Source: Lysobacterales bacterium 66-474 (GTDB taxonomy: Bacteria > Pseudomonadota > Gammaproteobacteria > Xanthomonadales > Rhodanobacteraceae). From it: DNA of 64,000 nucleotides. Within the stretch, counting starts at the first letter, position 1, and every line of letters starts with the position of its first letter. The notes under the pieces are model-generated. The model was not told where the DNA came from. It did not search any database and was given only the letters and a program-made list of their open reading frames with translations. The position numbers were made by a program, and so were the translations under genes. This document shows, piece by piece, positions 15,813 through 32,324 of this stretch. The stretch is taken from assembly GCA_001899805.1 (NCBI GenBank), contig MKWP01000015.1, positions 186,001 through 250,000 on the forward strand, in the 5' to 3' direction.

Positions 15813-18800
15813 GTGGGCAATCCATTTTTTGAACATCCGATCCTGAATTCGCCGTACGAGTACCCAAAGCGTCATTGGGAACTCGACGGCAATGGGCAGC
15901 CCACCCAACAGATCATCGACAGTCGGCGCCCTGCCGACTTCGTCACCCCGATTCCGAAACCCCGCCGCCAACAGGGCCAGGGCCAGCAAGGCGACCTGTC
16001 GCTCGGCAACGACGCGGGGCTCTCGACCGAAAACCAGCAATACGCGCAGGCCGCGATCATCCGGCAGGTGCGCGAGCAGGTGGACCGCTGGCGCCTCCTT
16101 CCCGAAGCGCAATGGCGCGTCACGCCCGAAACCGCGCGACTGCTGAAGCATTGGCGAATGCTGCAACACCGCAGCGACGGCATCCGTCCGTTCTTCTGCC
16201 AGACCGAAGCCGCGGAAACCGCGATCTGGCTGACCGAAGTCGCGCCGGAAATCGGCAAGGACGGCAAGGCCATCCTGGACCACATGGCCAACGCGAACCG
16301 GGACGCCAACCCGGAGCTGCTGCGCCTGGCGCTGAAACTCGCCACCGGCGCCGGCAAGACCACCGTGATGGCCATGCTGATCGCATGGCAAACCACCAAT
16401 GCGTTGCGCCGGCCTTCCAGCAGGCGCTACAGCCGCGGTTTTCTCGTCGTCACGCCGGGCATCACCATCCGCGATCGCCTGCGCGTGCTGCAACCCAACG
16501 ATCCGGACAGCTACTACCGCGGGCGCGAACTCATTCCGCCCGACATGCTGGGCGACATCGAGAAGGCCAAGCTCGTCATCACCAACTACCACGCCTTCAT
16601 GCTGCGCGAACGCATGCAGGTGTCGGCCGGCGGACGCGCTCTGCTCAAGGGCCGCCACGGCGACGCCGAGCTGCAGACGCAGGAAACCGAAGGCCAGATG
16701 ATCCAGCGCGTCATGCCGGAACTCATGGGCATGAAGAACATCCTCGTCATCAACGACGAGGCGCACCATTGCTATCGCGAACGGCCCGCCGACGATGCCG
16801 ATTTCACCGATGATCATGGCAACCCGTTGAAAGGCGCCGATCTCACCGAAGCCAGAAACGCAGCGCAGAAGGAAAACGAAGCCGCGCGCGTATGGATTTC
16901 GGGCCTGGAAACCGTCAACCGCAAGCTCGGTGTCAGCCGTGTGATGGATCTCTCCGCCACGCCGTTCTTCCTGCGCGGCTCGGGTTACGCCGAAGGCACC
17001 CTGTTCCCGTGGACCATGAGCGACTTCTCGCTGATGGATGCGATCGAATGCGGCATCGTCAAGCTGCCGCGTGTACCCGTTTCCGACAACATTCCCGGCA
17101 ACGAGGTGCCCACCTATCGCAATCTTTGGGACAACATCCGCAAAGACATGCCGAAGAAGGGTCGCGGCAAGGCCACCAACCTCGATCCGATGGCATTGCC
17201 GGTCATGCTGCAGACCGCGCTCGAGGCCCTTTACGGCCACTACGAACAGGTATTCGCCGACTGGCAGCAGGCCGGAATCCGGGTACCTCCGTGCTTCATC
17301 ATCGTGTGCCAGAACACCGCAGTGTCGAAGCTGGTGTACGACTACGTATCCGGCTTCGAACGCGAACCCAACAGCGATGGCACCGTGCCGCCGCCCTACC
17401 TCGGCAAGCTGCCGCTGTTCCGCAACTTCGACCAGCACGGCAACCGCATCGCGCGTCCGCGCACCCTGCTGATAGACAGCACGCAACTGGAATCCGGCGA
17501 TGCGCTGGACAAGGATTTCCAGGCTGCGGCGGCGGCGCAGATCGACCAGTTCAAGCGCGAGGTCATCGAGCGCACCAACGATGCCCACGCCGCCGATAGC
17601 CTGACCAACGAAGACCTGCTGCGCGAGGTGATGAACACCGTCGGCAAGACCGACCGGCTGGGCGAATCCGTGCGCTGCGTGGTGTCGGTGTCGATGCTCA
17701 CCGAAGGCTGGGATGCCAACACCGTCACCCACGTGCTGGGCGTGCGTGCATTCGGCACCCAGCTCCTGTGCGAACAGGTCATCGGCCGCGCGCTGCGCCG
17801 CCAGTCCTACGAACAGGACGCCGAAGGCCTGTTCCCCGTCGAATACGCCGACGTGCTGGGCGTGCCGTTCGATTTCACCGCGCAGGCGGTCAATGTCAAG
17901 CCGCAGCCGCCGCGCGAAACCGTGCAGGTGAAGGCCATCCGGCCCGCGCGCGACGCGCTGGAAATCCGCTTTCCGCGCGTGGCCGGTTACCGCGTGGCGC
18001 TGCCGGAAACACGCCTGGCCGCGAAATTCGATGACGATTCCAGACTTGTACTGACGCCGGCCATCGTCGGCCCCGCCAAGGTCCACAACGCCGGCATCAT
18101 CGGCCAGGGCGTGGACTTGAACCTGAAACATCTTGGCGACGTGCGGCAATCGTCCTTGCTGTTCCACCTGACCCAGCGTCTGCTCGAAACCAAATGGCGC
18201 GACAAGGACCAACAGCCGCAGCTCAACCTGTTCGGCCAGTTGAAACGCATCACGCGCGAATGGCTGGACAACTACCTTGAATGCAAGGGCGGCACCTACC
18301 CGCAGCTTCTGATGTACCAGCAGCTCGCCGATATGGCCTGCAACCGCATCACCGCCGCGATCACGCAGGCACATCTGCACGAACGCCCGGTGCTGGCCAT
18401 GCTGGACCCGTACAACCCCGAAGGTTCCACCGCGCACGTCAACTTCACCACCACGCGCACCGAGCGCTGGGAAACGCGCGCCGATCGATCGCACGTCAAC
18501 TGGGCCATCCTCGACAGTGGCTGGGAAGGCGAATTCTGCCGCGTGGTCGAAGACCACCCGCGCGTCATCACCTACGTCAAGAACCGCAACCTTGGTCTGG
18601 AAGTGCCCTACCGCCACGGCTCCGACAACCGCGCCTACATCCCCGACTACATCGTGCGGGTGGACGACGGCCACGGCCAGGGCGATCCGCTCAACCTGAT
18701 CGTCGAGATCAAGGGCTACCGCGGCGAGGACGCCAAGGAAAAGGCCTCCACCATGAAGACCTACTGGGTGCCCGGCGTCAACAACCTCAAGGACCACGGC

Positions 18801-18905
18801 CGCTGGGCCTTCGCCGAGTTCACGGACGTATGGGCCATGCAGGAGGATTTCGCCAGGGTCATAAGCACCGGATTTGACCGCATGCTGGCTGAAGTGCGTT
18901 CATGA
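15813..18905 (+). CDS. Type III-like restriction helicase-nuclease (Res, BPTD_3080-like)
   Basis: A 1030-aa SF2 helicase-nuclease. Walker A is LATGAGKTTVM (Lys182), motif II is NDEAHHC (DEAH 315-318), motif III is DLSATPFF and motif VI is QVIGRALRR. Near the C-terminus IPDYIVR (Asp945) and LIVEIKGYRG (Glu965, Lys967) form a PD-(D/E)xK nuclease site. This is the translocase-cleavage subunit expected to work with the methyltransferase two genes on. The GTG start follows AGGGGA. It is the first gene of the plus-strand operon, 94 bases before fic. Confidence 0.85.
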   Translation: MGNPFFEHPILNSPYEYPKRHWELDGNGQPTQQIIDSRRPADFVTPIPKPRRQQGQGQQGDLSLGNDAGLSTENQQYAQAAIIRQVREQVDRWRLLPEAQWRVTPETARLLKHWRMLQHRSDGIRPFFCQTEAAETAIWLTEVAPEIGKDGKAILDHMANANRDANPELLRLALKLATGAGKTTVMAMLIAWQTTNALRRPSSRRYSRGFLVVTPGITIRDRLRVLQPNDPDSYYRGRELIPPDMLGDIEKAKLVITNYHAFMLRERMQVSAGGRALLKGRHGDAELQTQETEGQMIQRVMPELMGMKNILVINDEAHHCYRERPADDADFTDDHGNPLKGADLTEARNAAQKENEAARVWISGLETVNRKLGVSRVMDLSATPFFLRGSGYAEGTLFPWTMSDFSLMDAIECGIVKLPRVPVSDNIPGNEVPTYRNLWDNIRKDMPKKGRGKATNLDPMALPVMLQTALEALYGHYEQVFADWQQAGIRVPPCFIIVCQNTAVSKLVYDYVSGFEREPNSDGTVPPPYLGKLPLFRNFDQHGNRIARPRTLLIDSTQLESGDALDKDFQAAAAAQIDQFKREVIERTNDAHAADSLTNEDLLREVMNTVGKTDRLGESVRCVVSVSMLTEGWDANTVTHVLGVRAFGTQLLCEQVIGRALRRQSYEQDAEGLFPVEYADVLGVPFDFTAQAVNVKPQPPRETVQVKAIRPARDALEIRFPRVAGYRVALPETRLAAKFDDDSRLVLTPAIVGPAKVHNAGIIGQGVDLNLKHLGDVRQSSLLFHLTQRLLETKWRDKDQQPQLNLFGQLKRITREWLDNYLECKGGTYPQLLMYQQLADMACNRITAAITQAHLHERPVLAMLDPYNPEGSTAHVNFTTTRTERWETRADRSHVNWAILDSGWEGEFCRVVEDHPRVITYVKNRNLGLEVPYRHGSDNRAYIPDYIVRVDDGHGQGDPLNLIVEIKGYRGEDAKEKASTMKTYWVPGVNNLKDHGRWAFAEFTDVWAMQEDFARVISTGFDRMLAEVRS

Positions 18906-18916
18906 GCCGCCAAAAG

Positions 18917-18970
18917 CTATACACATGTTGCACAACATGTATAGAAATATGCCAATATCTATACATGTTT
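18917..18970 (+). promoter_or_regulatory. Triple CTATACATGTT-type operator upstream of fic
   Basis: Three related sites lie in an A+T-rich 94-bp gap: CTATACACATGTTG (18917-18930), its inverted partner CAACATGTATAG (18933-18944) and a third direct copy CTATACATGTTT (18959-18970). The arrangement looks like an operator for a dimeric DNA-binding protein. The Fic protein's own C-terminal winged helix is a candidate binder. Confidence 0.6.
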
Positions 18971-18999
18971 ATCGGCTTAGGTAAGGGAACTTGCCCAAC

Positions 19000-20091
19000 A
19001 TGAGCATGACGCCGTCCCTGCGCCCACTGGAACACCTCGATCCCGCGCGGTTCGATACGCCCGCGATCCTGAAGCAGCTCATCGGTGCCAACCGCCAACT
19101 GGCCGAGTTCAAGGGCGTGGTCGCCACCATCCCCAACCGCAACATCCTCATCAGCACCCTGGCGCTGCAGGAAGCCAAGGACAGTTCGGCCATCGAGAAC
19201 ATCGTCACCACCCACGACGAGCTGTTCCGCGACGCCGCCTTTCCCGATGCCCCCAACAATCCCGCCGCCAAGGAAGTGCTGCGCTACCGCCAGGCGCTGT
19301 CCGTCGGCTTCGAAGCTGTCCGCAAAACCGGCCTGCTCACCACCAACCAGATCATCGCCATCCAGGGTGAGCTGGAACGCAACAAGGCCGGCCTGCGCAA
19401 ACTGCCTGGCACCGCGCTCAAGGATGGCGCCGGCCACACCGTCTACACGCCGCCACAGAACCCGGATGACATCGTGGCCCTGCTGGGTGATCTGGAACAC
19501 TTCATCAACGATCCGGCCCGGTTTGATGCCGATCCGCTGGTCAGGATGGCGCTGATCCACCATCGCTTCGAGTCCATCCACCCGTTTTACGACGGCAACG
19601 GTCGCACCGGGCGCATCGTCAACGTGCTGTATCTGGTCCAGCAGGGCCTGCTGGACATCCCGGTGCTGTACCTCAGCCGCCACATCGTACGCACCAAGGC
19701 CGACTATTACCGCCTGTTGCAGGCCGTGCGCGACGACGATCGCTGGGAAGACTGGGTGCTGTACATGCTCACCGCCGTGGAACGCACCGCGGCCGATGGC
19801 ATCCGTACCGTCCACGCCATGCGCACACTGATGCAGGACCTGAAGCAGCGCATCCGCGCGCAATACCGCTTCTACAGCCAGGACCTCATCAACAACCTGA
19901 TGAGCCATCCTTACACCAAGATCGACTTCATCCGCCGCGACCTCAAAGTCTCGCGGCTCACGGCCACCCGTTATCTCGATCAACTCGTCGAGGGCGGCTT
20001 CCTGCACAAGCAGAAAATCGGTCGCTCCAACTATTACGTCAACCTGCCGCTGTTCCAGATCTTGAGCGGTGAGCCCGAAGGAACGCGCTGA
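19000..20091 (+). CDS. Fic-domain AMP-transferase with C-terminal winged helix
   Basis: A 363-aa Fic protein. The catalytic loop HPFYDGNGRTGR begins at His194 and is fully canonical, so AMPylation of a target protein is expected. Residues 62-67, SSAIEN, match the (S/T)xxxE(G/N) inhibitory helix N-terminal to the Fic core (class II, self-inhibited, Glu66). The last ~70 residues (DFIRRDLKVSRLTATRYLDQLVEGGFL) form a winged helix. The start at ATG 19000 has AAGGGA at good spacing. It sits one base before the methyltransferase gene, inside the restriction operon. Confidence 0.88.
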   Translation: MSMTPSLRPLEHLDPARFDTPAILKQLIGANRQLAEFKGVVATIPNRNILISTLALQEAKDSSAIENIVTTHDELFRDAAFPDAPNNPAAKEVLRYRQALSVGFEAVRKTGLLTTNQIIAIQGELERNKAGLRKLPGTALKDGAGHTVYTPPQNPDDIVALLGDLEHFINDPARFDADPLVRMALIHHRFESIHPFYDGNGRTGRIVNVLYLVQQGLLDIPVLYLSRHIVRTKADYYRLLQAVRDDDRWEDWVLYMLTAVERTAADGIRTVHAMRTLMQDLKQRIRAQYRFYSQDLINNLMSHPYTKIDFIRRDLKVSRLTATRYLDQLVEGGFLHKQKIGRSNYYVNLPLFQILSGEPEGTR

Positions 20092-20092
20092 C

Positions 20093-23074
20093 ATGCCCCG
20101 CACGCCCAAACAGCCCAAGATCATCGCCACGCTGAAACACAAGGAGGCGAAGCGCACCAACATCCCCACCGCGGAATACCAGTCGGTGATGCAGGCCGAG
20201 GACAAGGCGCCGGTCAAGGTCAGCTATCCGCGCGGCGCACACGGGATGAAAAAAGAGAAGGACGAACGCAACCGCGACCTCGACCCGCAACTGGTCTGGC
20301 GCGGCAAGGACCAGCAGGACTGGTCCGACCTCGTGGTCAACGCGCCGCCGCTCTACATCCAGGAAAAGGTCAAGCCCAAGGTCCTGATCGACGACCTGCT
20401 GCGCGAAACCAAAGAACACCCGCGCGGGCGAGGGGCCGGCGCTGGTCTCCCCTCTCCCTCCGGGAGAGGGGCCGGGGGTGAGGGTCCGGGCTCGCCCGAC
20501 GCCGGCAATTACGAACAAATCAACCTCTTCGCCGACTTCAACGGCCTCCCCGAAGGCGCCGACAAGACCGACTTCTACCACTACGAGGGCAACTGGCAGA
20601 ACCGCATGATCCTCGGCGATTCATTGCAGGTGATGGCCAGCCTGGCCGAGCGCGAAGGCCTGCGCGGCAAGGTGCAGTGCATCTACCTCGATCCGCCCTA
20701 CGGCATCAAGTTCAACTCCAACTTCCAGTGGTCCACCACCAGCCGCGACGTCAAGGACGGCAACGCCGAGCACATCACCCGCGAGCCCGAGCAGGTCAAG
20801 GCCTTCCGCGACACCTGGCGCGACGGTATCCATTCCTACCTCACCTACCTGCGCGACCGGCTGACCGTGGCGCGCGATCTTTTGACCGAATCCGGCTCGA
20901 TCTTCGTGCAGATCGGCGACGAGAACGTGCACCGCGTGCGGGCGGTGATGGATGAGGTGTTGGGAGACAACAACGCAGTTGTAACCATAGTCGTTACAAA
21001 AAAGAGCGCGACTACGACAACCGATCCGGTTAATGACTACCTGCTCTGGTATGCGAAAGACCGTAGCAAACTGAAACTGCGCACTCTTTACCGAGAGCGA
21101 CGCGATCCCGAGGATGACAACAAGTTCAACACACTCATTTCCCCACAGGGTCAACATGCCCGCGTTGTTAATTTGAACGAACAAGAAGTGACAAGCAGAC
21201 TCGAAGCCGGATGGCGATGGGCACGGGTGAACTATCCGCTCGTAAGCCAAGATCGATCTGACCGTAGTTTGGATTTCGAGTTTTGCGGCAAGAGTTTCGA
21301 GTGCGGCGCAAACCGCCACTGGACATACGATCCGGGTGCCGATATGCATCGGCTCAGCCGTGCAGAACGCATGTTTGATGGCGGCGGAAAGTCCCTCGGT
21401 GGTGTGGTGTATTGGGCTGATTGGTCCTATGCGTCCATCGCCAACATCTGGACAGAGTTCCACGGCGAGAAGTTTCCAATTTACGTGGTGCAAACAAATC
21501 CGCGTTTGATCGAGCGGTGCCTGCTGATGACCACCGACCCCGGCGACCTGGTGCTGGACCCCACCTGCGGCTCCGGCACCACGGCCTACGTCGCCGAACA
21601 ATGGGGCCGCCGCTGGATCACCCTCGACACATCGCGCGTGGCGCTGGCGCTGGCCCGCGCCCGCATCATGGGCGCGCGCTATCCGTATTACCTGCTGGCC
21701 GATTCGAAGGAAGGGCAAATCAAAGAGGCCGAAGTCACCCGCAGCGTGCCGAAATCCACGCCCACGTACGGCAACATCGGCCTTGGCTTCGTGTACGAGC
21801 GCGTGCCGCACATCACCCTGAAATCCATCGCCAACAACACCGAAATCGACGTCATCTGGGACAAGTTTGAAGCCCAGCTGGCGCCGTTGCGCGAAAAGCT
21901 CACCGCCGCGCTGCCCAAGGGCTGGCTGGCCGCATACCGCAAGCAGCAGAAATACACCGCCGACGTACCCACCACCATCCAGGAATGGGAAGTGCCGCGC
22001 TCCCTGTCCGGGGATGGAACGGAGGCCGCACAGAAACTGCTGGCCGAATTCTGGAAACTGCGCATCGCGCGGCAAAAGGAAATCGACGCCTCCATCGCCG
22101 CCAAAGCCGACTTCGAAAACCTCTACGACAAACCCTACGAAGACAAGAAGAAGGTGCGCGTGGCCGGCCCGTTCACGGTGGAAAGCCTCTCGCCGCACCG
22201 CATCCTGGGCGTGGACGAGCACGGCGAGGTGATCGACGGCGTGAAGGATGCCGGCGACGCGCCCGACTTCGCACAGATGATCCTGGAAAACCTGCGCACC
22301 GCCGGCGTGCAGCAGGCGCACAAGGACGACCGCATCAGCTTCACCTCGCTCGTGCCCTGGCCCGGCAGCCTCGTCTGTGCCGAAGGTCGTTACCTCGAAG
22401 GCACGAAGGAAAAACGCGCCGGCATCTTCATCGGCCCCGAGTTCGGTACCGTCTCGCGGCCCGACCTGGTGGAAGCCGCGCGCGAAGCCGGCGACGCCGG
22501 TTTCGACGTGTTGATCGCCTGCGCCTTCGGCTACGACGCGCATTCCAGCGAGTTCGAGAAACTCGGCCGCATCCCGGTGCTGAAGGCGCGCATGAACGCC
22601 GACCTGCACATGGCCGACGACCTGAAGAATACCGGCAAAGGCAACCTGTTCGTGATCTTCGGCGAACCCGACATCGACGTGCTGCCAGTGCCCCCCTCTC
22701 CCTCCGGGAGAGGGGCTGGGGGTGAGGGTTCGGACACCGAGTGGATCCAGGTCAAGGTCAACGGCGTCGACGTATTCAAACCGCAAACCGGCGAAGTCGT
22801 CAGCGACGGCCCCGACGGCATCGCCTGCTGGTTCGTGGATACCGACTACAACGAAGAATCCTTCTTCGTCCGCCAGGCCTACTTCCTCGGCGCCAACGAC
22901 CCCTACAAGTCACTCAAGACCACCCTGAAAGCCGAAATCAACCCCGAAGCCTGGGAAACCCTGCACAGCGACACCTCCCGCCCGTTCCCCAAACCCAAAG
23001 ACCACCGTATCGCCGTCAAGGTCATCAACCACCTCGGCGACGAGGTGATGAAGGTGTTCAAGGTTAAAGCATAA
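20093..23074 (+). CDS. Site-specific adenine DNA methyltransferase (type III Mod-like, long form)
   Basis: A 993-aa beta-class amino-methyltransferase: motif IV DPPYGIKF at residues 200-207 precedes motif I DPTCGSGTTAYVAEQW at 489-504, and LGDSLQVM lies upstream. Much longer than usual Mod proteins because of a ~450-residue C-terminal part of unknown role. Two copies of a host repeat are read in frame (about residues 119-133 and 867-881). The segment between motifs IV and I, about 20960-21510, is clearly poorer in G+C than its flanks and probably holds an exchanged target-recognition domain. Likely protects host DNA from the upstream Res. Confidence 0.85.
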   Translation: MPRTPKQPKIIATLKHKEAKRTNIPTAEYQSVMQAEDKAPVKVSYPRGAHGMKKEKDERNRDLDPQLVWRGKDQQDWSDLVVNAPPLYIQEKVKPKVLIDDLLRETKEHPRGRGAGAGLPSPSGRGAGGEGPGSPDAGNYEQINLFADFNGLPEGADKTDFYHYEGNWQNRMILGDSLQVMASLAEREGLRGKVQCIYLDPPYGIKFNSNFQWSTTSRDVKDGNAEHITREPEQVKAFRDTWRDGIHSYLTYLRDRLTVARDLLTESGSIFVQIGDENVHRVRAVMDEVLGDNNAVVTIVVTKKSATTTTDPVNDYLLWYAKDRSKLKLRTLYRERRDPEDDNKFNTLISPQGQHARVVNLNEQEVTSRLEAGWRWARVNYPLVSQDRSDRSLDFEFCGKSFECGANRHWTYDPGADMHRLSRAERMFDGGGKSLGGVVYWADWSYASIANIWTEFHGEKFPIYVVQTNPRLIERCLLMTTDPGDLVLDPTCGSGTTAYVAEQWGRRWITLDTSRVALALARARIMGARYPYYLLADSKEGQIKEAEVTRSVPKSTPTYGNIGLGFVYERVPHITLKSIANNTEIDVIWDKFEAQLAPLREKLTAALPKGWLAAYRKQQKYTADVPTTIQEWEVPRSLSGDGTEAAQKLLAEFWKLRIARQKEIDASIAAKADFENLYDKPYEDKKKVRVAGPFTVESLSPHRILGVDEHGEVIDGVKDAGDAPDFAQMILENLRTAGVQQAHKDDRISFTSLVPWPGSLVCAEGRYLEGTKEKRAGIFIGPEFGTVSRPDLVEAAREAGDAGFDVLIACAFGYDAHSSEFEKLGRIPVLKARMNADLHMADDLKNTGKGNLFVIFGEPDIDVLPVPPSPSGRGAGGEGSDTEWIQVKVNGVDVFKPQTGEVVSDGPDGIACWFVDTDYNEESFFVRQAYFLGANDPYKSLKTTLKAEINPEAWETLHSDTSRPFPKPKDHRIAVKVINHLGDEVMKVFKVKA
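20449..20489 (+). repeat. In-frame CCCTCTCC...GGAGAGGG element, copy A
   Basis: A 41-base element with the stem CCCTCTCCC-TCC-GGGAGAGGG followed by CCGGGGGTGAGGG. It matches 22693-22733 at 39 of 41 positions and is translated as SPSGRGAGGEG inside the methyltransferase. The frame is kept on both sides. Confidence 0.9.
22693..22733 (+). repeat. In-frame CCCTCTCC...GGAGAGGG element, copy B
   Basis: Second copy in the same gene, again read in frame as SPSGRGAGGEG. Copies of the same family lie outside the island near 57550-57684, so it is a host chromosomal repeat and not a domain of the methyltransferase. Confidence 0.9.
23006..23066 (+). repeat. 61-bp duplicated methyltransferase tail, copy 1
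   Basis: The final codons of the methyltransferase (RIAVKVINHLGDEVMKVFKV). It matches 25052-25112 at 56 of 61 positions. The two copies bracket the DUF262 gene. Confidence 0.85.
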
Positions 23075-23095
23075 AACTGATCACAAGGGGGCTAC

Positions 23096-24901
23096 ATGTT
23101 TGTCAATCCAACCTCGTTGAGCGTCGCCCAACTTTTGGGTGGCCAAAGTGAGCAGTACGTCATCCCGGCGTACCAACGTCGTTACTCGTGGCAAGAGAAG
23201 CAACTCTGCGAACTGCTTGAAGACATCCAGCTCCTTGAGGGTAACGACAACCATCTACTCGGCAGCATTGTTTGCTTGGTTGGCCCCCACGGCGCAGGGG
23301 TAAATCGTCTCGAACTTGTAGATGGGCAACAACGAATTGCAACACTCAATATCCTCTTGCATTGCATGCTTGAGCAGATGCGCCGGCCAAACGGTTCAGA
23401 TGAACGCGATATAGCCTCAATCGCATTGCTTCTTCAAGCTCGCGCGCCCGACAAAAGCTTGGTTCCAAAGATCGCGCTGGACTCGATCGATGCCCACGAA
23501 TTCCGGCGGCATGTTGCCAAGGAGTCCATTGACAAACCAGGAAATCCACACTTGGCCTTCGCGTTCAAGCATTACCGCCAATGGGTCGCCGACCAGTCGC
23601 CGCAGATGTTGGATGCTTTCCGCTATCGCCTCATTAACCAAGCCACAGTCATCAGGCTGGATGTCAGCAACGCCAAAGACGCCTTCAAGCTGTTCGAGAC
23701 GATCAACAATCGAGGACTGCGGCTCAGCGCCACCGACATCATAAAGAACTTCATCCTGGGGAATGCGGCACGTTTCGGTTCTGTAGCCCTGGAAGCTGCA
23801 CGGGTGCGCTGGGCAGAAGTGATCAAGTACCTGGACGGAACAAACTTCGAAAACTTCTTTCGCCACTTCCTGGCGGCGACCTTAAAGCGCCGAGTAACCG
23901 CAGCCTATACGGTCAGTAGCTTCAAAGCAGTTTTCATGGAGCATGTAGCCGAGGCGAGCAACTTGCCAGAGCGTCACTGGTATGCCGAGGAAGCTGCGGC
24001 CGACGACGAAGATGAGGATGACCTGAAAGATCAAGAGAATGGAACGACGGAAGTCACACCAGTAACTGATCCTGCATTGATTCAGAAGATGTCGTTTTCC
24101 GAATTTCTTCAGCGATTGGCAAGCTACGCGAAGACCTACGGAGAGATCGTTCGGGCGCAAACCGGCATACCACTGCTTGATCGACATTTGCGCAACTTAC
24201 GAATGATCAAATCCATGCAGACCTATGGATTTCTTATGGCACTGCGGGCTGGTGGCTGCAAGGACGACGTTTTTGCAAAGGTGTTGCATCTTACGGAATC
24301 TTTCATGCTCCGACGTCACATTTGTCGGGAGCGTGCTAACGAAAACGAAACCATGTTCGCCAGATTGTGCAGCACCGACCCTACCGACCCGCTGCCTAAC
24401 GTGATCGGAGAGTTTCGTGCGTTGACGCCGTCAGACGATATTTTTGAGGCCAGCTTCGCAAAATTTGACTTCAGTGCAAATGTTCTGGAGCGCGCTCGCT
24501 ACTGTCTTGAGCAATTCGAACAAAGAGAACATGGCGATTATTCCGAGATTTCTGTCGCCGGCTCCGACGTGGTGCATGTAGAGCACATCATTCCCCAGAA
24601 GATCAAGACCAAAAAGGCAAGGGATGAGTTCGGCGATTGGGTCGGCTACCTCGGCGAAAAGTCGATCGCCAACCACCCTCACTACGTCTCCAGAATAGGG
24701 AATCTCACTCTGTTCGCAGGTCATCTGAACATCAAAGCCTCCAACAACCCCTACGCACGCAAGAAGCCTGCATACAAGGAATCGGGTATCCAGATCACGA
24801 AGGAGTTGCCAATCATCTACCCCGAGTTCCGGTTCCAGCAAGTGGAAGAGCGTTCGGATGCCCTAGCGAAAGCAGCGGTTGATATCTGGCCGATCGCTTG
24901 A
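23096..24901 (+). CDS. DUF262/DUF1524 protein, GmrSD-like nuclease
   Basis: A 601-aa protein. The N-terminal DUF262 (GmrS/ParB-like) domain has YVIPAYQRRYSW and LVDGQQRIATLN, the nucleotide-handling motif. The C-terminal DUF1524 His-Me nuclease domain has VEHIIPQ (catalytic His near residue 497) and RIGNLTLFAGHLNIKASN. An acidic linker (AADDEDEDDL) lies between. GmrSD enzymes cut modified phage DNA. Its G+C is lower than its neighbours' and it is flanked by the duplicated methyltransferase tail, both signs of later insertion. AAGGGGGC precedes the ATG. Confidence 0.88.
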   Translation: MFVNPTSLSVAQLLGGQSEQYVIPAYQRRYSWQEKQLCELLEDIQLLEGNDNHLLGSIVCLVGPHGAGVNRLELVDGQQRIATLNILLHCMLEQMRRPNGSDERDIASIALLLQARAPDKSLVPKIALDSIDAHEFRRHVAKESIDKPGNPHLAFAFKHYRQWVADQSPQMLDAFRYRLINQATVIRLDVSNAKDAFKLFETINNRGLRLSATDIIKNFILGNAARFGSVALEAARVRWAEVIKYLDGTNFENFFRHFLAATLKRRVTAAYTVSSFKAVFMEHVAEASNLPERHWYAEEAAADDEDEDDLKDQENGTTEVTPVTDPALIQKMSFSEFLQRLASYAKTYGEIVRAQTGIPLLDRHLRNLRMIKSMQTYGFLMALRAGGCKDDVFAKVLHLTESFMLRRHICRERANENETMFARLCSTDPTDPLPNVIGEFRALTPSDDIFEASFAKFDFSANVLERARYCLEQFEQREHGDYSEISVAGSDVVHVEHIIPQKIKTKKARDEFGDWVGYLGEKSIANHPHYVSRIGNLTLFAGHLNIKASNNPYARKKPAYKESGIQITKELPIIYPEFRFQQVEERSDALAKAAVDIWPIA

Positions 24902-24910
24902 GGGATTGAA

Positions 24911-25117
24911 ATGGATTTCCGCATCGCCGACACCTTCACTGAAAGCCTTGCCCGCTTGGCCGGCGACAAGCAGAAGACGGGCAAGCAGCAGCTCGATATG
25001 CAGATGACCCGCGCCAGTCCGGGTACGAGCTTGCGCGAGCCCGAAACCGGCCGCATCGCCGTCAAGGTCATCAACCACATCGGCGACGGGGTGACGAAGG
25101 TGTTCAAGGTGACGTAA
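24911..25117 (+). pseudogene. Chimeric remnant: RelE-like N-terminus joined to methyltransferase C-terminus
   Basis: A 68-codon frame. Residues 1-40 (MDFRIADTFTESLARLAGD...) match the N-terminus of the UvrD fusion protein at 30144 (MNFRIADTFTDSLAHLTGD...). The last ~20 residues (RIAVKVINHIGDGVTKVFKV) match the end of the methyltransferase. It is therefore a recombination scar and not a gene with its own history, although it may still be translated. Its stop overlaps the SNF2 start (TAATG). Confidence 0.8.
25052..25112 (+). repeat. 61-bp duplicated methyltransferase tail, copy 2
   Basis: Partner of 23006-23066, with five mismatches in 61 bases. It ends 5 bases before the SNF2 ATG, suggesting that the methyltransferase once ran directly into the SNF2 gene. 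Confidence 0.85.
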
Positions 25118-28100
25118 TGGTGCAGCCAGGGGATAGGGTCAGGGTGATTGCCAACCCCGGCCGGGTGGGCATGGTTGGGAACGAAATCGACGGTTCCCCC
25201 GCGCGGCGTCGGGTGCTGGTGCAATTTTTGGATGGCAGCGAGGAATTTGTACTCGCGGCATCACTGGAAAAGGTAGGGCACGAAAGCGTCGGGCCATACG
25301 AGCGCATCCGGAGCGGGCGGTTCGGTCGTGCCAGTGACCTGCGCGGCCTCATCACGCATTTCCGGTTGAGCGGCAAGCTGGCGAACCTGATCTACAGCCT
25401 CAACACCACCAACACTGAGTTTCTGGCCTACCAATTCAAGCCGGTGTTGCAGTACCTCGAAACGACCAGCCACGGACTCCTGATCGCCGACGAGGTGGGT
25501 TTGGGCAAGACGATCGAAGCCGGGTTGATCTGGACGGAGTTGCGCGCGCGCGAGGACGCCCGTCGCTTGCTTGTCGTGTGTCCCGCGATGCTGTGCGAGA
25601 AGTGGCGTGATGAATTGCGCAACCGCTTCGGTGTAGGTGCGGAGATCGTCAATGCCGGCGAGTTGCTGAAGCGCCTGAAGGACGCGGATCGCGATCCTCG
25701 CGCGACGTTCGCCCTGATCGCTAGCGTGCAAGGCCTACGCCCTCCGAGCAGTAGCCAGTGGGAGTCGCGCGATGGCTCAACACCGCGCGCGTCCGCGCAA
25801 CTCGCAGCATTTCTTGATGCGGCAAAGGTCAAGGAGCCGCTGCTCGACTTGACGATTGTGGATGAGGCTCACTACCTCCGGAATCCGGAAACACGGGCGC
25901 ACCGACTGGGTGAATTGTTGCGTACGACCAGCATGGGCATGCTCATGTTGAGCGCCACGCCGATCCAGTTGGGCAGCAGCGATTTGTTCACGCTGGTCAA
26001 TCTGCTGGATGCGGAAGGCTTTCCGTACGAGCGATCCTTCACCCAGCTGCTGGAGTGGAACGCGCCTCTGGTGCGTCTGCGTGACAAGGTGCTCAGTCAG
26101 CGGATGTCGTGCACGCAGTTCATGGAGGAACTTGACGCCGTTGCTGGCGCGCCGTTGCTGCAGGACAGCCGGCAAGTCAAATACCTGCAAAGCCATCCGC
26201 CCACCGATGCAGAGCTGGCCTCTTCCGGCCGACGTTCCGAACTCGCCGATCAACTCGATCGCGTCAACCCACTCTCGAAGATTGTTACCCGTACGCTGAA
26301 GCGCGATGTACAGGAGAATCGCATCGAGCGCAGCGTGAGCATCATCCGGGTGAAGATGGCGCCCGTGGAGGAGCGGTTCTATGACGAAGTGACGGGACGG
26401 GTGCGCGAGTATTGCGCCGGACGCGACATGAGCGAAGGGTTTATGCTCACGATTCCGCAACGCCAGATGTCGAGCTGCATGGCCGCGGCGAGCCGCGAAT
26501 GGGCCGGAAAGATCCGTGCCGATAATCTGGATGAAACGGCCTACGAAGCCTACGGCGATGCCGACGACGATGCACAGAAGCCCAAGACCTTGGGCCCGCT
26601 GCTGCAGCAGCTCGCGATCATTGCCCATACCAGTGCGGAAGCGTCCCACCTTGAGGCGGTGGATACGAAATTCGACGAATTGCGGGCGCATCTGGAACGC
26701 TACTGGAATGGCAATCCGGATGCCAAGGTCATCCTGTTTTCGTTCTATCGCGGCACGCTCGCCTATCTGGAACGCAGGCTCGGTAGCCATGGCTACAAGT
26801 GTTTCAAGCTGCATGGCGGCGATGACAAGCAGGCGATCATCAATGCGTTTCGGGATCACTCCGGTGCGGCGATCCTGCTTTCTTCGGAGGTTGCTTCAGA
26901 AGGCGTGGATCTGCAGTTTTCCAGCCTGTTGATCAACTACGACTTGCCGTGGAACCCTGCCCGCATCGAGCAACGCATCGGTCGTATCGACCGCATCGGC
27001 CAGAAGCAGCCCAAGATTCTCATCTGGAACTTCGTTCATTCCGACACCATCGACGAGCGTATCCACGATCGCTTGTTGACGCGCCTTGGCATCTTCAAGC
27101 GGGCACTAGGCACTTTGGAAGACGTCTTGGGCCGGGAAATCCGGACGCTCGCTTACAGTCTGCTATCACACCGTCTGTCGGCCAAGGACGAAATCAGGCG
27201 CATGGAACAAACCGAGCTGGCGCTTGCCAACAGGGAACGCCAGCAGGAACGGCTGGAACAGGAAGCCACTTCCCTCATTGCGCACGGCACATTGATCCAG
27301 GACAAAGTTCGCGCGGCAAGGGAACTCGGGCGCTTCATCCGCGGCATCGATCTTCGGCACTATGTCGTGGATTTCTTCGATCGTCACTATCCCGGTTGCC
27401 GGTTTGTGCAGATGGGAGATGACCCTCTCACCTTCAACGCATATTTGTCCACCGCCGCCCGGTCCGATCTGGAAGCCTTCCTTGCGGGTGATCGGAGTTT
27501 GGGAACCACGCATCTGCTGCGAGCGGGGGAGCGGGATGCGCGGATCCGTTTCGATAATACGGCCGGGACGGCACAGCCGCACGAAGAGCGGATTACCCAG
27601 ACTCATCCCTTGCTGAAGTTCATCACCGAGCAAGTGCGCCTTGCGGGCACCGGCGTGGGATATCAGACCGTGTCCGCAACGGAGCTGAGCGCTGGCGTCG
27701 ATGTCAGCCTGCCGCGCGGCATCTACGTGTATGCGATCGCCCGCTGGTCCATTACGGGAGCCAGGACGATGGAACGGCTGGAATTCAGCGCCCGCCATGT
27801 GGAATCAGGCGACTCGCTGGAAGCCGACGACGCCGAGCGTTTGGCAAACGCCGCGGCGCTCTCGGGGCGTGACTGGCTTTCCACCCACAACATGCTCGAT
27901 GTCGCGCAGGCCGCCGACGTCTACGAACTCCTGCAAGAGGACCTCGATGACCGTTTTGAGCGGTTTTCGGCACTCGCGGAAATGGAGAATCTTGACCGGA
28001 TTGACCAGATGGTGAGCTCCTTGAGCGATCACCTTCGCAACGAGCAAGGACGGTTCAACGAACGGATTCAGACTTACAGGCTCTCAAACGACGAGAACAA

Positions 28101-28242
28101 GATCCGCCTGATACCGGCTGAGCGTGGACGCCTGAAGCGGCTCGAGGCGCGCTTCGAGGAACGCATCGCGCAGCTTGACTTGCGGAGAAAGTTGGACAAG
28201 CAGAATAATTTTGTTTCTGCCGGCGTCATTCACGTGAGTTGA
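25117..28242 (+). CDS. SNF2/RapA-family ATPase (DpdE/DrmD-like)
   Basis: A 1041-aa SNF2 translocase. A short N-terminal SH3-like part (VRVIANPGRVGMVGNEIDG...VLVQFLDG) precedes the motor. Walker A is ADEVGLGKTIEAG (Lys131), motif II is VDEAHYLRNPETR (from Asp249), motif III is LSATPIQLG, and motif VI lies in NPARIEQRIGRIDRIGQ. The C-terminal ~400 residues are helical with a coiled-coil-like stretch. It resembles the stand-alone RapA-like ATPases of defence loci. It is coupled to the preceding remnant (TAATG) and lies 30 bases before the Hsp70-like gene. Confidence 0.85.
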   Translation: MVQPGDRVRVIANPGRVGMVGNEIDGSPARRRVLVQFLDGSEEFVLAASLEKVGHESVGPYERIRSGRFGRASDLRGLITHFRLSGKLANLIYSLNTTNTEFLAYQFKPVLQYLETTSHGLLIADEVGLGKTIEAGLIWTELRAREDARRLLVVCPAMLCEKWRDELRNRFGVGAEIVNAGELLKRLKDADRDPRATFALIASVQGLRPPSSSQWESRDGSTPRASAQLAAFLDAAKVKEPLLDLTIVDEAHYLRNPETRAHRLGELLRTTSMGMLMLSATPIQLGSSDLFTLVNLLDAEGFPYERSFTQLLEWNAPLVRLRDKVLSQRMSCTQFMEELDAVAGAPLLQDSRQVKYLQSHPPTDAELASSGRRSELADQLDRVNPLSKIVTRTLKRDVQENRIERSVSIIRVKMAPVEERFYDEVTGRVREYCAGRDMSEGFMLTIPQRQMSSCMAAASREWAGKIRADNLDETAYEAYGDADDDAQKPKTLGPLLQQLAIIAHTSAEASHLEAVDTKFDELRAHLERYWNGNPDAKVILFSFYRGTLAYLERRLGSHGYKCFKLHGGDDKQAIINAFRDHSGAAILLSSEVASEGVDLQFSSLLINYDLPWNPARIEQRIGRIDRIGQKQPKILIWNFVHSDTIDERIHDRLLTRLGIFKRALGTLEDVLGREIRTLAYSLLSHRLSAKDEIRRMEQTELALANRERQQERLEQEATSLIAHGTLIQDKVRAARELGRFIRGIDLRHYVVDFFDRHYPGCRFVQMGDDPLTFNAYLSTAARSDLEAFLAGDRSLGTTHLLRAGERDARIRFDNTAGTAQPHEERITQTHPLLKFITEQVRLAGTGVGYQTVSATELSAGVDVSLPRGIYVYAIARWSITGARTMERLEFSARHVESGDSLEADDAERLANAAALSGRDWLSTHNMLDVAQAADVYELLQEDLDDRFERFSALAEMENLDRIDQMVSSLSDHLRNEQGRFNERIQTYRLSNDENKIRLIPAERGRLKRLEARFEERIAQLDLRRKLDKQNNFVSAGVIHVS

Positions 28243-28272
28243 GCTGGAGATACCGGGAAGGGGGGAAGAGGC

Positions 28273-30111
28273 ATGGGGGCGATCCGCGATGCACTCGAGA
28301 AAGCTTTGGCAGATGCAGCTGTGAAGCGCGAGGGCGCGGCTTTGGATGATGACCGGGTGCGGCTGTCACTCAAAATCAAGAGAAGCCCCAAACCACCCAT
28401 CATCAAGTACAAACCGCGTGCTGCCAAGATCTCACCTGGGACTACCGATCGCGAGCCGCGCAAGAAGGTGGGCAAAGAGCAGCGCCGTCCAGCGACACAG
28501 GCAGCACGTATCGATGGGGCGGCTATCGACAGGCGCATCATACGCTCGGCTCTACTCAAAAAATCACGTAAGACGCGGCACGTCCCTCTGGCGTCAACCC
28601 TCGCGGTCTATGGAAACAGACACGGCACTCCGGGTTCGAAGCCGAGCGGCAAGCCGGGCTCCTCGTCCGCAGCACCGTCCGTTGCTCGAATCGACGCTGA
28701 TACCCGAGTCGTGCTTCCGCCAGCCGCTTTGCGGGCAACATTGCTTGATCGCGCCATCGAAGAGCGTGGCATTGTTCTTGAACATATCGTTGGCACGGCG
28801 GCTGCGTCGCGGGAGCTTGTACTGGGCCTCGATTTTGGATCATCCAGCACGAAGCTGGTGATCTCCGATCGCGCGGCGGGCAAGTCGTTCGCCGTGCCTG
28901 TTGCAGATGCCGTGGGTACGAGGCGCTTTCTCTTGCCGACGGCAATCCACGAATGCGATGACCGCTACTCTCTCGATGACGCTGGGACCCTGTACACGGG
29001 ATTGAAATCTGACCTGCTCGCTTCGCCTGAAAACGTTCGTGTTCGTGAGCGGGCGGTCGCCTACTTGGCTCTGGCGATCAGGCGTGCGCGTGGTTGGCTG
29101 TTCACGACGCACGAGTCTATTTATCGTGATGTACCGATCTTCTGGACACTCAGCATAGGCATCCCAAAGCAACAGGGGCAAATCGACCGCGATACGAGTT
29201 TGTACAAGCGTTTGGCGGCGGCGGCTTGGCGGGTAGCAGGTGCGCCCGCCCCCGTTACGACTGGAAACGTCGTCGCTGCCATGCAAAGGAACGAAGGGCG
29301 CCAGACGGATGACACTGTGGAAGTTCGGGTCGTGCCAGAGATCGCGGCCGAAATCTACGGGTTTGTTTCTTCGGAGTCGTTTGACCCCAAGCCCGACAAC
29401 GTTTTCCTCATGGTAGACGTCGGCGGCAAGACGCTGGACGCATCGCTGTTCCGCGTAAAACGCAACAAGGCCAATCGCTGGGATTTCTCATTTTTCACGT
29501 CGGTGGTACGTCCACTTGGAGCCCTTGAGCTGCATGGGGCGCGGATCGATTGGTGGAAGGAAATGTTGCGCGCACGAGCATGCGACGAACGGGCCGTGAG
29601 CTTGATTGCAGACCTGGAAGCTTTGAAGCAATCAAGCATGTTCGAGGAGATGATTCCGGCCAAAGCAACTGATTATGTTGAAGGTGTGGAACTGACGCAG
29701 GGGCCGGAAGCCAGCACGCCGGATGCTTCGTATCGCGCGGAGGTACGGGTGGCCGTTCGGCGGAAGGCGTACGACAGCGCGTTCGGAGTGCAGTTGTCGG
29801 ATCGGCAAATGGACGGGGTGGAATACTTCCTGTGCGGGGGAGGATCACGGATGGAGATCTACTCGAAGGTAGTACACGGTGCCTTGAGCGGGCCGAGTGG
29901 AGCACTGTTTCACGCCAACCGGCGCATTTTGCGGGTTCCTGGGGACCTGCTGGCGCCTGGTCTTCCGGAGCCTGACTATGACCGCTTCGCGGTCGCATAC
30001 GGCCTAAGCCGTTTGGACAGGACGAGTGTGATGGATGCCAAACCGCTCCCGCCTCCCAAACGGCGTGACCGGAAATACGAAAATCGATTCGTCAGCAAGG
30101 ACATGTGCTGA
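28273..30111 (+). CDS. Actin/Hsp70-superfamily ATPase
   Basis: A 612-aa protein. After a basic, low-complexity N-terminal ~170 residues comes an ASKHA ATPase core: phosphate-1 motif VLGLDFGSSSTKLVI (near residue 186), phosphate-2 motif LMVDVGGKTLDASLF, and adenosine motif YFLCGGGSRME. There is no substrate-binding domain like that of DnaK. It probably acts as an ATP-driven switch or filament with the SNF2 protein encoded just upstream. GGGGGAAGAGG precedes the ATG. I know no named defence protein with this exact make-up. Confidence 0.8.
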   Translation: MGAIRDALEKALADAAVKREGAALDDDRVRLSLKIKRSPKPPIIKYKPRAAKISPGTTDREPRKKVGKEQRRPATQAARIDGAAIDRRIIRSALLKKSRKTRHVPLASTLAVYGNRHGTPGSKPSGKPGSSSAAPSVARIDADTRVVLPPAALRATLLDRAIEERGIVLEHIVGTAAASRELVLGLDFGSSSTKLVISDRAAGKSFAVPVADAVGTRRFLLPTAIHECDDRYSLDDAGTLYTGLKSDLLASPENVRVRERAVAYLALAIRRARGWLFTTHESIYRDVPIFWTLSIGIPKQQGQIDRDTSLYKRLAAAAWRVAGAPAPVTTGNVVAAMQRNEGRQTDDTVEVRVVPEIAAEIYGFVSSESFDPKPDNVFLMVDVGGKTLDASLFRVKRNKANRWDFSFFTSVVRPLGALELHGARIDWWKEMLRARACDERAVSLIADLEALKQSSMFEEMIPAKATDYVEGVELTQGPEASTPDASYRAEVRVAVRRKAYDSAFGVQLSDRQMDGVEYFLCGGGSRMEIYSKVVHGALSGPSGALFHANRRILRVPGDLLAPGLPEPDYDRFAVAYGLSRLDRTSVMDAKPLPPPKRRDRKYENRFVSKDMC

Positions 30112-30143
30112 CCCTCATGCCGTCCGTCGAGAAAATCAGGCCC

Positions 30144-32324
30144 ATGAACTTTCGCATCGCCGACACCTTCACCGACAGTCTCGCCCACCTGACCGGCGAT
30201 GAGCAGAAGACGGTCAAGACCACAGCGTTTGACCTGCAGATGAACCCGGCGAATCCGGGCATGAGCTTCCACAAGCTCGACAAGGCGCGGGACAAGCATT
30301 TCTGGTCGGTGCGGGTGAGCAGTGACATCCGGTTGATCGTGCACCGGACATCGCAGGGCCTGCTGCTTTGCTATGTCGGTCATCACGACGACGCGTATGG
30401 GTGGGCGGAGCGACGCAAGATCGAAGCGCACCCGAAAACGGGCGCCGCACAGATCGTGGAGGTCCGCGAGCGGGTCGAGGAAATCACGGTCCCGAAATAC
30501 GTGGAACACGAGCAGCGTGGGTTGACCAGCGCGCCGCTGTTCGCAGCCATCGCCGATGGCGACTTGTTGTCGTGGGGCGTGCCGCCGGAATGGCTGCCGG
30601 ACGTACGCGCCGCCAACAGCGAGGACGGGCTGCTCGCACTGACGGATCATCTTCCTGCCGAAGCAGCCGAGGCGTTGATCGAGTTTGCGACGGGCGGGCA
30701 ACCGCAAGCACGTCTTCTGCCCGGGGTCTCCGGCGCCCATCTGCCGTCCGGCGTCGCGGCAAACATTCCGGAACCGGGCGCCGCCAGTTTCAGTATTCGT
30801 GAAGTAAAGGGCGGACGTATCGACCCCTTTGCCCACCCGGACGCCCAGCGTCGATTCCGCACCATCGAAAGCAGCGAGGAACTGGAACGCGCACTGGATG
30901 CGCCGTGGGACAAATGGACGATTTTCCTGCACCCGGCGCAGCGCGAATGGGTGGAGAAGGACTACAGCGGGCCGGCGCGTGTTTCCGGGTCGGCCGGCAC
31001 TGGCAAGACCATCGTGGCGCTGCATCGGGCGGTGCATCTTGCGCGTTCATACCCGGAGAGCCGTGTACTGCTGACGACGTTTTCCGACACACTGGCCAGT
31101 GCGTTGAGGGTGAAGCTGCGGCGCCTGGTCGGCAACGAGCCGCGGCTTGCCGAACGTATTGATGTGCATTCAATGGACTCCGTTGGCGAGCGGCTCTACA
31201 AGACCGCGCTCGGTTCACTGCGACTGGCAACGTCGCAGGACATTTCCACCTTGCTGGCATCGGTGGCGAATGCGCATCCCGACCACGGTTTCAGCCCCGC
31301 GTTCGTGCGCTCGGAATGGAACAACGTCGTGGACGCCTGGCAGTTGCGTTCTTGGGAAGCCTATCGCGACGTGCAGCGGCTCGGCCGCAGGACGCGGTTG
31401 CCCGAGGCTCGACGCAAGGTGCTGTGGGACATCTACGCCGACGTGCTTGCCAAACTGGAAGCCGAGGGCAAAACCACTCGCGCCGGCATGTTCGCGCGCC
31501 TTGCCAAAGAACTGACCAGGCGGGAGCGGCCGCCGTACGACTTTGCCGTGGTGGACGAGTCGCAGGACATCGATGTGGCGCAGTTGCGGTTCCTTGCCGC
31601 GCTGGGTGGCGATCGACCGAATGCGTTGTTCTTCGCCGGCGACCTTGGCCAACGCATCTTCCAGCAGCCGTTTTCGTGGAAATCGCAAGGCGTGGATGTC
31701 CGCGGCCGTGCGCGCACGCTGCACGTGAACTACCGCACCTCGCACCAGATTCGTGCGCAGGCCGATCGACTGCTCGACCCGGTGGTCGCCGATGTGGACG
31801 GCAACCAGGAAGAGCGCAAGGGTACGGTTTCCGTGTTCAATGGCCCGGAACCCGAGGTCCACACGTTCGGCGATGCGGCGGAGGAATCCACGGCGCTTGG
31901 CGAATGGCTCGCGGCGCGCGCAAGGGAAGGCGTGCCACCCAATGAGATGGCGGTGTTCGTCCGCTCCCGGGCGGAGATCGACCGCGCACAAGACGCCGTA
32001 AAGGCATCCGACATGGACGGCCAGGTGCTCGACGAGCGCATGCGGATCGAACCGGGCAAGGTCGCCATCAGCACGATGCATCTTGCCAAGGGCCTTGAGT
32101 TCAAGGTTGTCGCGGTGATGGCCTGCGACGATGAAGTCATCCCTTCGCAATCGCGAATCGACGCCATCGCCGACGATGCGGATCTGGAAGAGGTCTACAA
32201 CACCGAAAGGCATCTGCTGTACGTAGCTTGCACGCGCGCCCGCGACCGGTTGTGGGTTTCCGGTGTGAAGCCGGTGTCGGAATTTTTGGACGACTTGCTG
32301 GAGGGCCGTGCACCGAATGAGTGA
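30144..32324 (+). CDS. UvrD/Rep-type helicase with RelE-like N-terminal domain
   Basis: A 726-aa fusion. Residues 1-~90 (MNFRIADTFTDSL..., FWSVRVSSDIRLIVHR, LLLCYVGHHDDAYGWAERR) follow the RelE/ParE toxin fold. An SF1 helicase follows: Walker A SGSAGTGKTIVAL (Lys288), motif II VVDESQDID, motif IV region LHVNYRTSHQIR, motif V VAISTMHLAKGLEFKVV, and motif VI LLYVACTRARDRL. The start at 30144 is chosen by analogy with the remnant at 24911. Last gene of the operon, closed by the terminator at 32550. Confidence 0.82.
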   Translation: MNFRIADTFTDSLAHLTGDEQKTVKTTAFDLQMNPANPGMSFHKLDKARDKHFWSVRVSSDIRLIVHRTSQGLLLCYVGHHDDAYGWAERRKIEAHPKTGAAQIVEVRERVEEITVPKYVEHEQRGLTSAPLFAAIADGDLLSWGVPPEWLPDVRAANSEDGLLALTDHLPAEAAEALIEFATGGQPQARLLPGVSGAHLPSGVAANIPEPGAASFSIREVKGGRIDPFAHPDAQRRFRTIESSEELERALDAPWDKWTIFLHPAQREWVEKDYSGPARVSGSAGTGKTIVALHRAVHLARSYPESRVLLTTFSDTLASALRVKLRRLVGNEPRLAERIDVHSMDSVGERLYKTALGSLRLATSQDISTLLASVANAHPDHGFSPAFVRSEWNNVVDAWQLRSWEAYRDVQRLGRRTRLPEARRKVLWDIYADVLAKLEAEGKTTRAGMFARLAKELTRRERPPYDFAVVDESQDIDVAQLRFLAALGGDRPNALFFAGDLGQRIFQQPFSWKSQGVDVRGRARTLHVNYRTSHQIRAQADRLLDPVVADVDGNQEERKGTVSVFNGPEPEVHTFGDAAEESTALGEWLAARAREGVPPNEMAVFVRSRAEIDRAQDAVKASDMDGQVLDERMRIEPGKVAISTMHLAKGLEFKVVAVMACDDEVIPSQSRIDAIADDADLEEVYNTERHLLYVACTRARDRLWVSGVKPVSEFLDDLLEGRAPNE

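Follow-up and report, generated by a model that had tools for sequence, protein, structure and literature searches.

We examined a 64,000-nucleotide stretch of contig MKWP01000015.1 from Lysobacterales bacterium 66-474 (hereafter, the window), in which an operon at positions 15813 to 32324 contains seven large plus-strand open reading frames (ORFs) and a small eighth one (24911 to 25117). The operon is probably a type III-like restriction-modification (R-M) island, built from a three-gene core and two cargo slots that hold exchangeable second-line effectors. The core consists of a restriction endonuclease (Res), a methyltransferase (Mod), and a UvrD-type helicase. Judged by gene order across related loci, the recurring unit is this core with two internal slots, Res-(S1)-Mod-(S2)-UvrD. 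In the window, S1 carries a Fic protein, and S2 carries a GmrSD-type nuclease followed by a DrmD-like SNF2 ATPase and an Hsp70-like ATPase (Table 1).

The genes of the operon are real. Seven plus-strand genes had been called in a first-pass annotation of the same DNA, and both the ORFs and family scans confirmed them; catalytic-type motifs appear intact by eye in all seven proteins. The annotation had also combined the genes into one undescribed seven-gene system, and this proposal did not hold. The full set was found in none of the 62 loci ascertained through Mod and in none of the 78 ascertained through the Hsp70-like protein, absence being firm only for the 44 of these 78 that extend to roughly 9 kb on the upstream side of the Hsp70-like gene and 2.3 kb on its downstream side. 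In addition, a recombination scar inside the operon reads as the trace of two merged operons. By these comparisons, the window's set breaks down into the core of Res, Mod, and UvrD, the pair of DrmD and Hsp70-like genes, and cargo genes that stand singly.

Core order and slot contents

Of 398 genomes sampled across the phylum, 26, the window's own genome included, contained Mod relatives (1e-50). Besides that genome, we fetched 20 of 25 matching genomes, then 8 of 18 and 12 of 15 further ones, along with plasmid records found by Mod (12 of 40 fetched) or by UvrD (2 of 44). The locus table comprised 57 entries: the window, 52 loci obtained via Mod, and 4 via the Hsp70-like protein. Two loci fetched by UvrD (L146 and L147) had no Mod match and stand outside this table, and L179 was unusable and is not among the 62 Mod loci.

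Res was present in 58 of the 62 Mod-ascertained loci and UvrD in 39. In 48 of 57 loci, a Res of 40% identity or more preceded Mod on one strand, and in 37, UvrD followed Mod. All three genes stood in order in 36 of 57 loci, with both slots filled in 27, only S2 filled in 4, only S1 filled in 1, and both empty in 4. A Pseudomonas plasmid (L135) provides a natural empty form, in which the Mod stop and the UvrD start overlap by 1 nt. A distant group (L080, L132, L133, and L166 to L168) has Mod before Res, a Res only 31 to 33% identical, and no UvrD; L148 and L165 lack Res and lie at a contig or record end.

We called a slot filled when the gap exceeded 150 nt (S1) or 180 nt (S2). By this definition, S1 was filled in 37 of 48 loci and S2 in 32 of 37. 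The comparison demonstrates, at the level of sequence, that the core order is conserved, that two slots exist with cargo specific to each, that this cargo is tightly coupled to the core, and that in the window two S2 cargoes were merged when two alleles recombined. The start of the cargo adjoins the preceding stop, at a median of -3 nt after Res and 3.5 nt after Mod, and the median coding fraction of filled slots is 99%, which mechanical ORF calling inflates. The slots contained 97 cargo ORFs of at least 90 amino acids (aa) (45 in S1 and 52 in S2), which fell into 71 clusters. All 17 clusters found at more than one locus were confined to one slot. None of 20,000 permutations of slot labels reached this number (mean, 6.95; best, 14), but the labels were shuffled over single ORFs without regard to the kinship of loci, which overstates independence. 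Eleven virus-labelled contigs added later bear on S2 only; of their 9 cargo ORFs in this slot, 8 resembled cargo seen earlier, always S2 to S2, and three of the four loci in this test are close relatives.

Cargo also differed between loci with similar cores. For pairs of loci at 70 to 80% mean core identity, S2 cargo was common to 0 of 23 and S1 cargo to 4 of 21. L064 and L129 have Res, Mod, and UvrD proteins that are 93%, 77%, and 90% identical, yet both slots differ and no cargo is common to them. Five pairs exceeded 80% core identity. The sole one with both S1 slots filled has common S1 cargo, which is a counter-example, and one of the two with both S2 slots filled (L073 and L157) has an S2 cluster in common, consisting only of the doubtful ORF of cluster 16. 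When 30 cargo proteins were scanned against Pfam, 20 matched at an E value of 0.01, 16 of them above the curated cut-off, and 10 had no match. Matches above the cut-off included NYN, Bro-N (two), GmrSD_N, NOV_C, REase-ARP, AAA_16, AAA_15/21, AAA plus subtilase, ABC-3C CTD12 plus DUF2326, SIR2 plus HerA, AAA_21, and HNH; those below it were DUF4276, DUF4062, nucleoside deoxyribosyltransferase, and GIY-YIG. Separately, a Methylomagnum plasmid (L141) has an annotated CBASS phospholipase and nucleotidyltransferase directly after Mod, at the place of S2, without UvrD.

The core proteins resemble known R-M enzymes to different degrees. Res is an SF2 helicase with a C-terminal PD-(D/E)XK-like motif read by eye. 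It belongs to the BPTD_3080 family (NF046055), which is a protein family name only, and the same product name precedes the methylase in eight of the annotated plasmid stretches fetched. Matches of Res to the PADLOC REase_III models were weak (best, 21.6 bits), and no relative was found by sequence in the Protein Data Bank (PDB) at an E value of 0.01. Mod matched the EcoP15I Mod structure 4zcf at 1.1e-12 and the Mod structure 6k0w at 3.3e-16, and its DPPY motif precedes the S-adenosylmethionine (SAM) motif, an order read by eye. For identity profiles, we started from 36 loci and set aside 9 in which core genes were broken, split, or duplicated; filtering for stop codons then removed Res of L131, Mod of L116, and UvrD of L158, which left 26 loci per gene. 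Across these, residues 321 to 480 of Mod formed a hypervariable block (identity, 0.21 to 0.39), flanked by blocks at 0.61 and 0.89; this block is likely the target-recognition domain. The mod gene also contains two near-identical palindromic REP-like repeats (20449 to 20484 and 22693 to 22728) that are read in frame, giving the peptide SPSGRGAGGEG twice. The repeat had eight matches in the genome at up to three mismatches, and a reversed-pattern control had none. The last core gene had been described as a RelE-UvrD fusion. Pfam supported the UvrD part, and the RelE-like N terminus remained weak: HigB-like matches fell below the cut-off in four of four proteins (E values from 2.3e-4 to 0.11), and this N terminus had no PDB match.

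We infer the function of the operon and its parts from these resemblances. Type III Mod and Res enzymes methylate a short site on a single strand and, at the expense of ATP, cleave DNA that lacks the modification. Here, Mod would methylate host DNA at a site set by its variable domain, and Res, working with Mod, would translocate on and cut unmodified invading DNA, while the UvrD helicase may unwind or process the cut DNA. The cargo would supply exchangeable backup effectors or extenders. Fic proteins of the SoFic type transfer AMP, and upon a disturbance of restriction the one in S1 might modify a target in the host. GmrSD cleaves DNA that carries modified cytosines and could act on phage DNA whose base modifications block Res and Mod. 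RapA/SNF2 proteins translocate on DNA; together, the DrmD-like motor and the Hsp70-like ATPase switch may form a plug-in remodeller or translocase that reinforces systems based on methylation. If this reading is correct, a usable rule would follow: in this family, any gene that lies between Res and Mod or between Mod and UvrD is a candidate defence effector, and many such genes belong to no known family.

Recombination scars and competing readings

The small ORF between the GmrSD and DrmD-like genes is a chimera of 68 codons in which the 5' end of a uvrD gene is fused to the 3' end of a mod gene. Its uvrD part is 77% identical over 137 columns to the window's own uvrD (30144 to 30280), and its mod part is 93% identical over 60 nt to the window's own mod (23005 to 23064). 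Because the former diverges by 23%, an assembly duplicate is unlikely. From these matches, the ORF reads as the scar of a recombination that joined an allele A (Mod-GmrSD-UvrD) to an allele B (Mod-DrmD-Hsp70-UvrD).

We searched for further scars with 13 pieces of core genes, 11 of them serving as controls, against 34 S2 and 37 S1 slots. Pieces of the uvrD start were found in S2 of the window, L151, and L154 (E values of 1.5e-11 or less), and in the latter two loci the piece is followed by further genes and a full uvrD. Pieces of the mod end were found in S2 of the window and L156 (2e-7 or less). L156 carries an independent uvrD/mod chimera with other breakpoints, its 8-residue uvrD start being read by eye. 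A mod-end piece in L128 was weak (1.6e-4), close to the best control match (3.8e-4, where a P-loop stretch of Res matched an ATPase cargo), and was not counted as clear. There are thus clear remnants in three loci besides the window and a weak one in a fourth, and matches at 2e-7 or less came only from the two pieces that face S2. Such scars would be a physical record of how defence genes become stacked.

Several observations weigh against a two-slot carrier whose cargo is exchanged. A GmrSD of the window's type was seen in no other slot, and the predicted donor, allele A, was not seen. At 1e-60, the window's GmrSD was found among 200 genomes only in its own, and in none of the 62 Mod loci. 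No scar was detected in any of the 37 S1 slots, and L156 entered the scar count after a prior sighting. Mechanical ORF calling inflates the number of cargo clusters as it does the coding fraction, and a few cargo ORFs look spurious (cluster 16 of L073 and L157 and the S1 ORFs of L155 and L156). Synonymous identity was not consistently raised at the slot edges (26 loci per gene): identity at four-fold sites was 0.38 to 0.39 in the first 120 codons of UvrD, compared with 0.28 to 0.37 further in, and dropped to 0.40 at the end of Mod. Exchange at the slot edges is therefore supported by the scars only. The core itself varies, too. In Tistrella (L145), Mod lies before Res and UvrD is on the opposite strand, and in 12 of the 48 Res-Mod loci Mod is not followed by a UvrD on its own strand, with some contigs ending early; UvrD may therefore be dispensable or itself a frequent partner.

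Three other explanations deserve comparison with a slotted R-M island. Independent genes could simply crowd side by side in a defence island, with no slots and no functional tie. The entire operon does lie on a mobile tRNA-Ser island, and the DrmD-Hsp70 pair is convergent to the core in L064 and L073. Yet cargo occurs at two fixed, closely coupled places, with every common cluster slot-pure, and clear scars are built only from the two gene ends facing S2, so we regard crowding as unlikely. The single integrated machine, in which all seven parts are needed together, would account for the tight same-strand spacing and for the hairpin after the last gene. Core genes also occur together with the DrmD-Hsp70 pair in 4 of 78 loci, including Res-Mod-DrmD-Hsp70 in a Ramlibacter (L024). 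The first-pass annotation had named recurrence of the gene order as its check. The genes of the full set did turn up independently and never all together, whereas sub-modules recurred as in those four loci. With Fic in only 2 of the 62 Mod loci, window-type GmrSD, DrmD, and Hsp70-like genes each in none, and a scar of two merged alleles inside the operon, an integrated machine is highly improbable. Of that annotation, the defence role of the parts and a layered logic of restriction plus backup effectors agree with the evidence.

It is also quite improbable that the operon is a DISARM- or ARMADA-related system centred on DrmD and the RelE-like/UvrD protein, with Res and Mod as accessories. Such a system is suggested by the SNF2 protein, which is of the DrmD group, and by UvrD relatives near DrmD-Hsp70 genes without Res or Mod in L008 and L012. 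ARMADA type II, as presented in the available part of its description, has a BrxHII/RapA-like helicase, a PglX-like methylase, and a UvrD helicase with an N-terminal RelE-like domain (PMC12458937). However, no DrmB, DrmC, or YprA/DUF1998 was among the matches listed for the seven proteins, and the window's UvrD is 46 to 64% identical to UvrDs that follow Mod but only 32% identical to those of L008 and L012.

Membership in DISARM, BREX, Hma, or ARMADA was rejected in general, the defining genes not being among the matches listed. As previously annotated, BREX hallmarks are absent, with no PglZ or BrxC match listed for the seven proteins. The stated absence of DISARM hallmarks likewise agreed with the listed matches, which comprise up to 25 each for four of the seven proteins and include neither DrmB nor DrmC; DrmA appeared only as a cross-match of the SNF2 protein (152 bits). 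For Hma, the HmaB methylase and HmaC ATPase were not among the matches listed, and there was only an HmaA cross-match of the SNF2 protein (183 bits). No DUF1998 match occurred in the seven proteins; ARMADA is defined by a YprA-family helicase with DUF1998, according to the available text (PMC12458937).

The DrmD-Hsp70 pair and known systems

The DrmD-like protein scored 412 bits against the NCBIfam DrmD model, below its cut-off of 610. Its partner had no PDB match with a single sequence and only a marginal one with a profile (best E value, 0.004). Fold comparison settles that this partner has an Hsp70/actin-fold ATPase domain. The aligned part covers residues 180 to 591 of 612, and residues from about 22 to 130 are of low confidence. 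The chain ends some 20 residues past the aligned part, and there is therefore no room for a C-terminal substrate-binding domain. Residues of the phosphate motifs were invariant in 48 sequences. A conserved C-terminal SKD tail was considered and rejected: it is invariant in 4 sequences but in place in only 12 of 54.

Few genomes carry the Hsp70-like gene, which occurred in 2 of 369 genomes of the class (the window's own included) and in 2 plasmid records. The 78 Hsp70 loci were obtained by scanning GTDB with four aligned Hsp70-like proteins. In 69 of these loci, a DrmD-like gene adjoins the Hsp70-like gene in the same orientation and no more than 1.3 kb away, preceding it in 62 and following it in 7, all 7 being cyanobacterial records. 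Of the nine loci without an adjoining DrmD, five are at a contig end, L075 and L078 have it slightly further off, and L079 and L083 have none; overall, DrmD was found in 71 of 78.

The pair occurs beside several kinds of defence genes, as called by PADLOC on nine representative proteins, with other members assigned by clustering. It sits between BrxC and PglX of BREX loci in L031 and L034 and follows DrmA-DrmB on the same strand in L021 to L023, while in L033 it is divergent from them. In L048, L054, and L059, HmaB-HmaC are followed by the pair and a PDC-S68 helicase, an arrangement that would represent an Hma variant with a DrmD-like SNF2 protein. Relatives of Res and Mod lie near the Hsp70-like gene in 4 of 78 loci (L024, L064, L073, and L080), as does UvrD in 4 of 78; in Ramlibacter, a 122-aa ORF separates Mod from DrmD. 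On Aminobacter plasmid pAA03 (L006), we observed a row of genes for a TM0106 RecB-like nuclease, an AAA ATPase, a restriction endonuclease, a DrmD-like helicase, and an Hsp70-like protein, near Hachiman HamA and an AbiEii gene.

A broader proposal, which we consider evenly balanced, joins both lines of evidence. The BPTD_3080 R-M family would be a dedicated two-slot carrier whose cassettes are swapped slot for slot among related islands and may pile up through recombination events that leave scars of uvrD starts and mod ends, which would make the evolving R-M operon a kind of rack for backup effectors; the DrmD-Hsp70 pair would be a general plug-in ATPase module of type III-like R-M, BREX, Hma, and DISARM; and the Hsp70-like protein would be an unrecognised standing partner of DrmD-type motors. 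As the pair recurs with genes of BREX, Hma, DISARM, and R-M systems, the results of a single biochemical study could apply to all four.

Parts of the operon are familiar from known systems. As in type III R-M (EcoP15I), Mod is related by sequence and has the DPPY-type motif and a hypervariable block, and it lies beside an SF2 helicase-nuclease Res whose nuclease motif was read by eye. The window differs in the length of Mod (1001 aa versus 644 aa for EcoP15I Mod) and in having a third core gene, UvrD, and two cargo slots. BREX and BREX-related Hma loci embed effectors such as GmrSD, OLD/TOPRIM, HEPN, and PIN inside the core locus (PMC12839542). The principle of extra effectors is alike, but the core is another one, and the available text of that paper contains no slot-specific positions, scars, or Hsp70 partner (Hsp70, DrmD, DnaK, and ASKHA, 0 occurrences). 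With DISARM (DrmD) and ARMADA (ArmA and ArmD), the operon has in common a DrmD/RapA-like SNF2 protein and a UvrD whose N terminus, by weak matches, may be RelE-like as described for ArmD, a likeness by description only; the Res/Mod core is different. CoCoNuT CnuD likewise places an Hsp70-like ATPase domain in a defence operon, and in the accessible description this domain is either fused to McrBC proteins or located next to them, and very weak hydrolysis is predicted (PMC11090510). Unlike CnuD, to which its likeness is by description only, the window's protein stands beside DrmD and has invariant phosphate-motif residues.

The core is of a known kind, type III-like R-M. What appears to be new is the arrangement in two slots with stacking scars, together with a DrmD-Hsp70 pair found across systems. 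In the literature searched, where most subscription papers were not covered, we found no description of a two-slot Res/Mod/UvrD core and none of DrmD and the Hsp70-like protein together; the name BPTD_3080 was not mentioned in the literature searched either.

Island layout and features of the window

The operon is the payload of an integrated 24-kb tRNA-Ser island flanked by an exact 59-bp repeat (Table 1). In the island ends outside the operon (11637 to 15812 and 32325 to 34621), none of eight ORFs tested had a Pfam match at an E value of 0.001.

Table 1. Positions of the operon genes and island features within the window
Feature	Position	Strand	Evidence and remarks
tRNA-Ser(cga)	11546..11636	+	ARAGORN; final 59 bases (11578-11636) form the island's left attachment repeat
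Core gene 1, Res, BPTD_3080-family restriction endonuclease	15813..18905	+	NCBIfam NF046055, 1310 bits (cut-off 800); ResIII
S1 cargo, SoFic-type Fic protein	18991..20091	+	PADLOC SoFic, 382.6 bits; HPFYDGNGR motif by eye
Core gene 2, Mod, type III-like methyltransferase, 1001 aa	20069..23074	+	PADLOC MTase_III PDLC03632, 1350 bits, nearly full length
S2 cargo A, GmrSD-type nuclease	23096..24901	+	Pfam GmrSD_N and GmrSD_C; GC 0.528
Recombination scar, 68-aa ORF, uvrD 5' end fused to mod 3' end, between GmrSD and DrmD	24911..25117	+	Nucleotide matches within the window
S2 cargo B1, DrmD-like (RapA-like) SNF2 ATPase	25117..28242	+	PADLOC DrmD, 876 bits; RapA best in PDB
S2 cargo B2, Hsp70/actin-fold ATPase, 612 aa	28273..30111	+	Fold comparison; no family match
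Core gene 3, RelE-like (weak) domain fused to UvrD-type helicase	30105..32324	+	Pfam UvrD; 3' of Mod, same strand, in 37 of 57 loci
16-bp perfect hairpin 3' of the operon	32550..32584	n/a	T-poor tail on plus strand
Tyrosine (phage-type) integrase, inside right island end	34622..35731	-	Pfam Phage_integrase, 87.7 bits
Right attachment repeat	35749..35807	+	59-bp exact copy of the tRNA-Ser 3' end

The 85-nt gap between res and fic (18906 to 18990) contains palindromic half-sites of the CTATACA/TGTATAG type. This stretch could be an operator carried with the Fic cargo; by eye, such half-sites were not seen in the stretches before the Fic genes of L149 and L161, the two Mod loci with Fic, which is in S1 in both. 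GC content in the island interior is 0.608, compared with 0.669 and 0.648 outside, and the six operon genes other than GmrSD range from 0.593 to 0.637.

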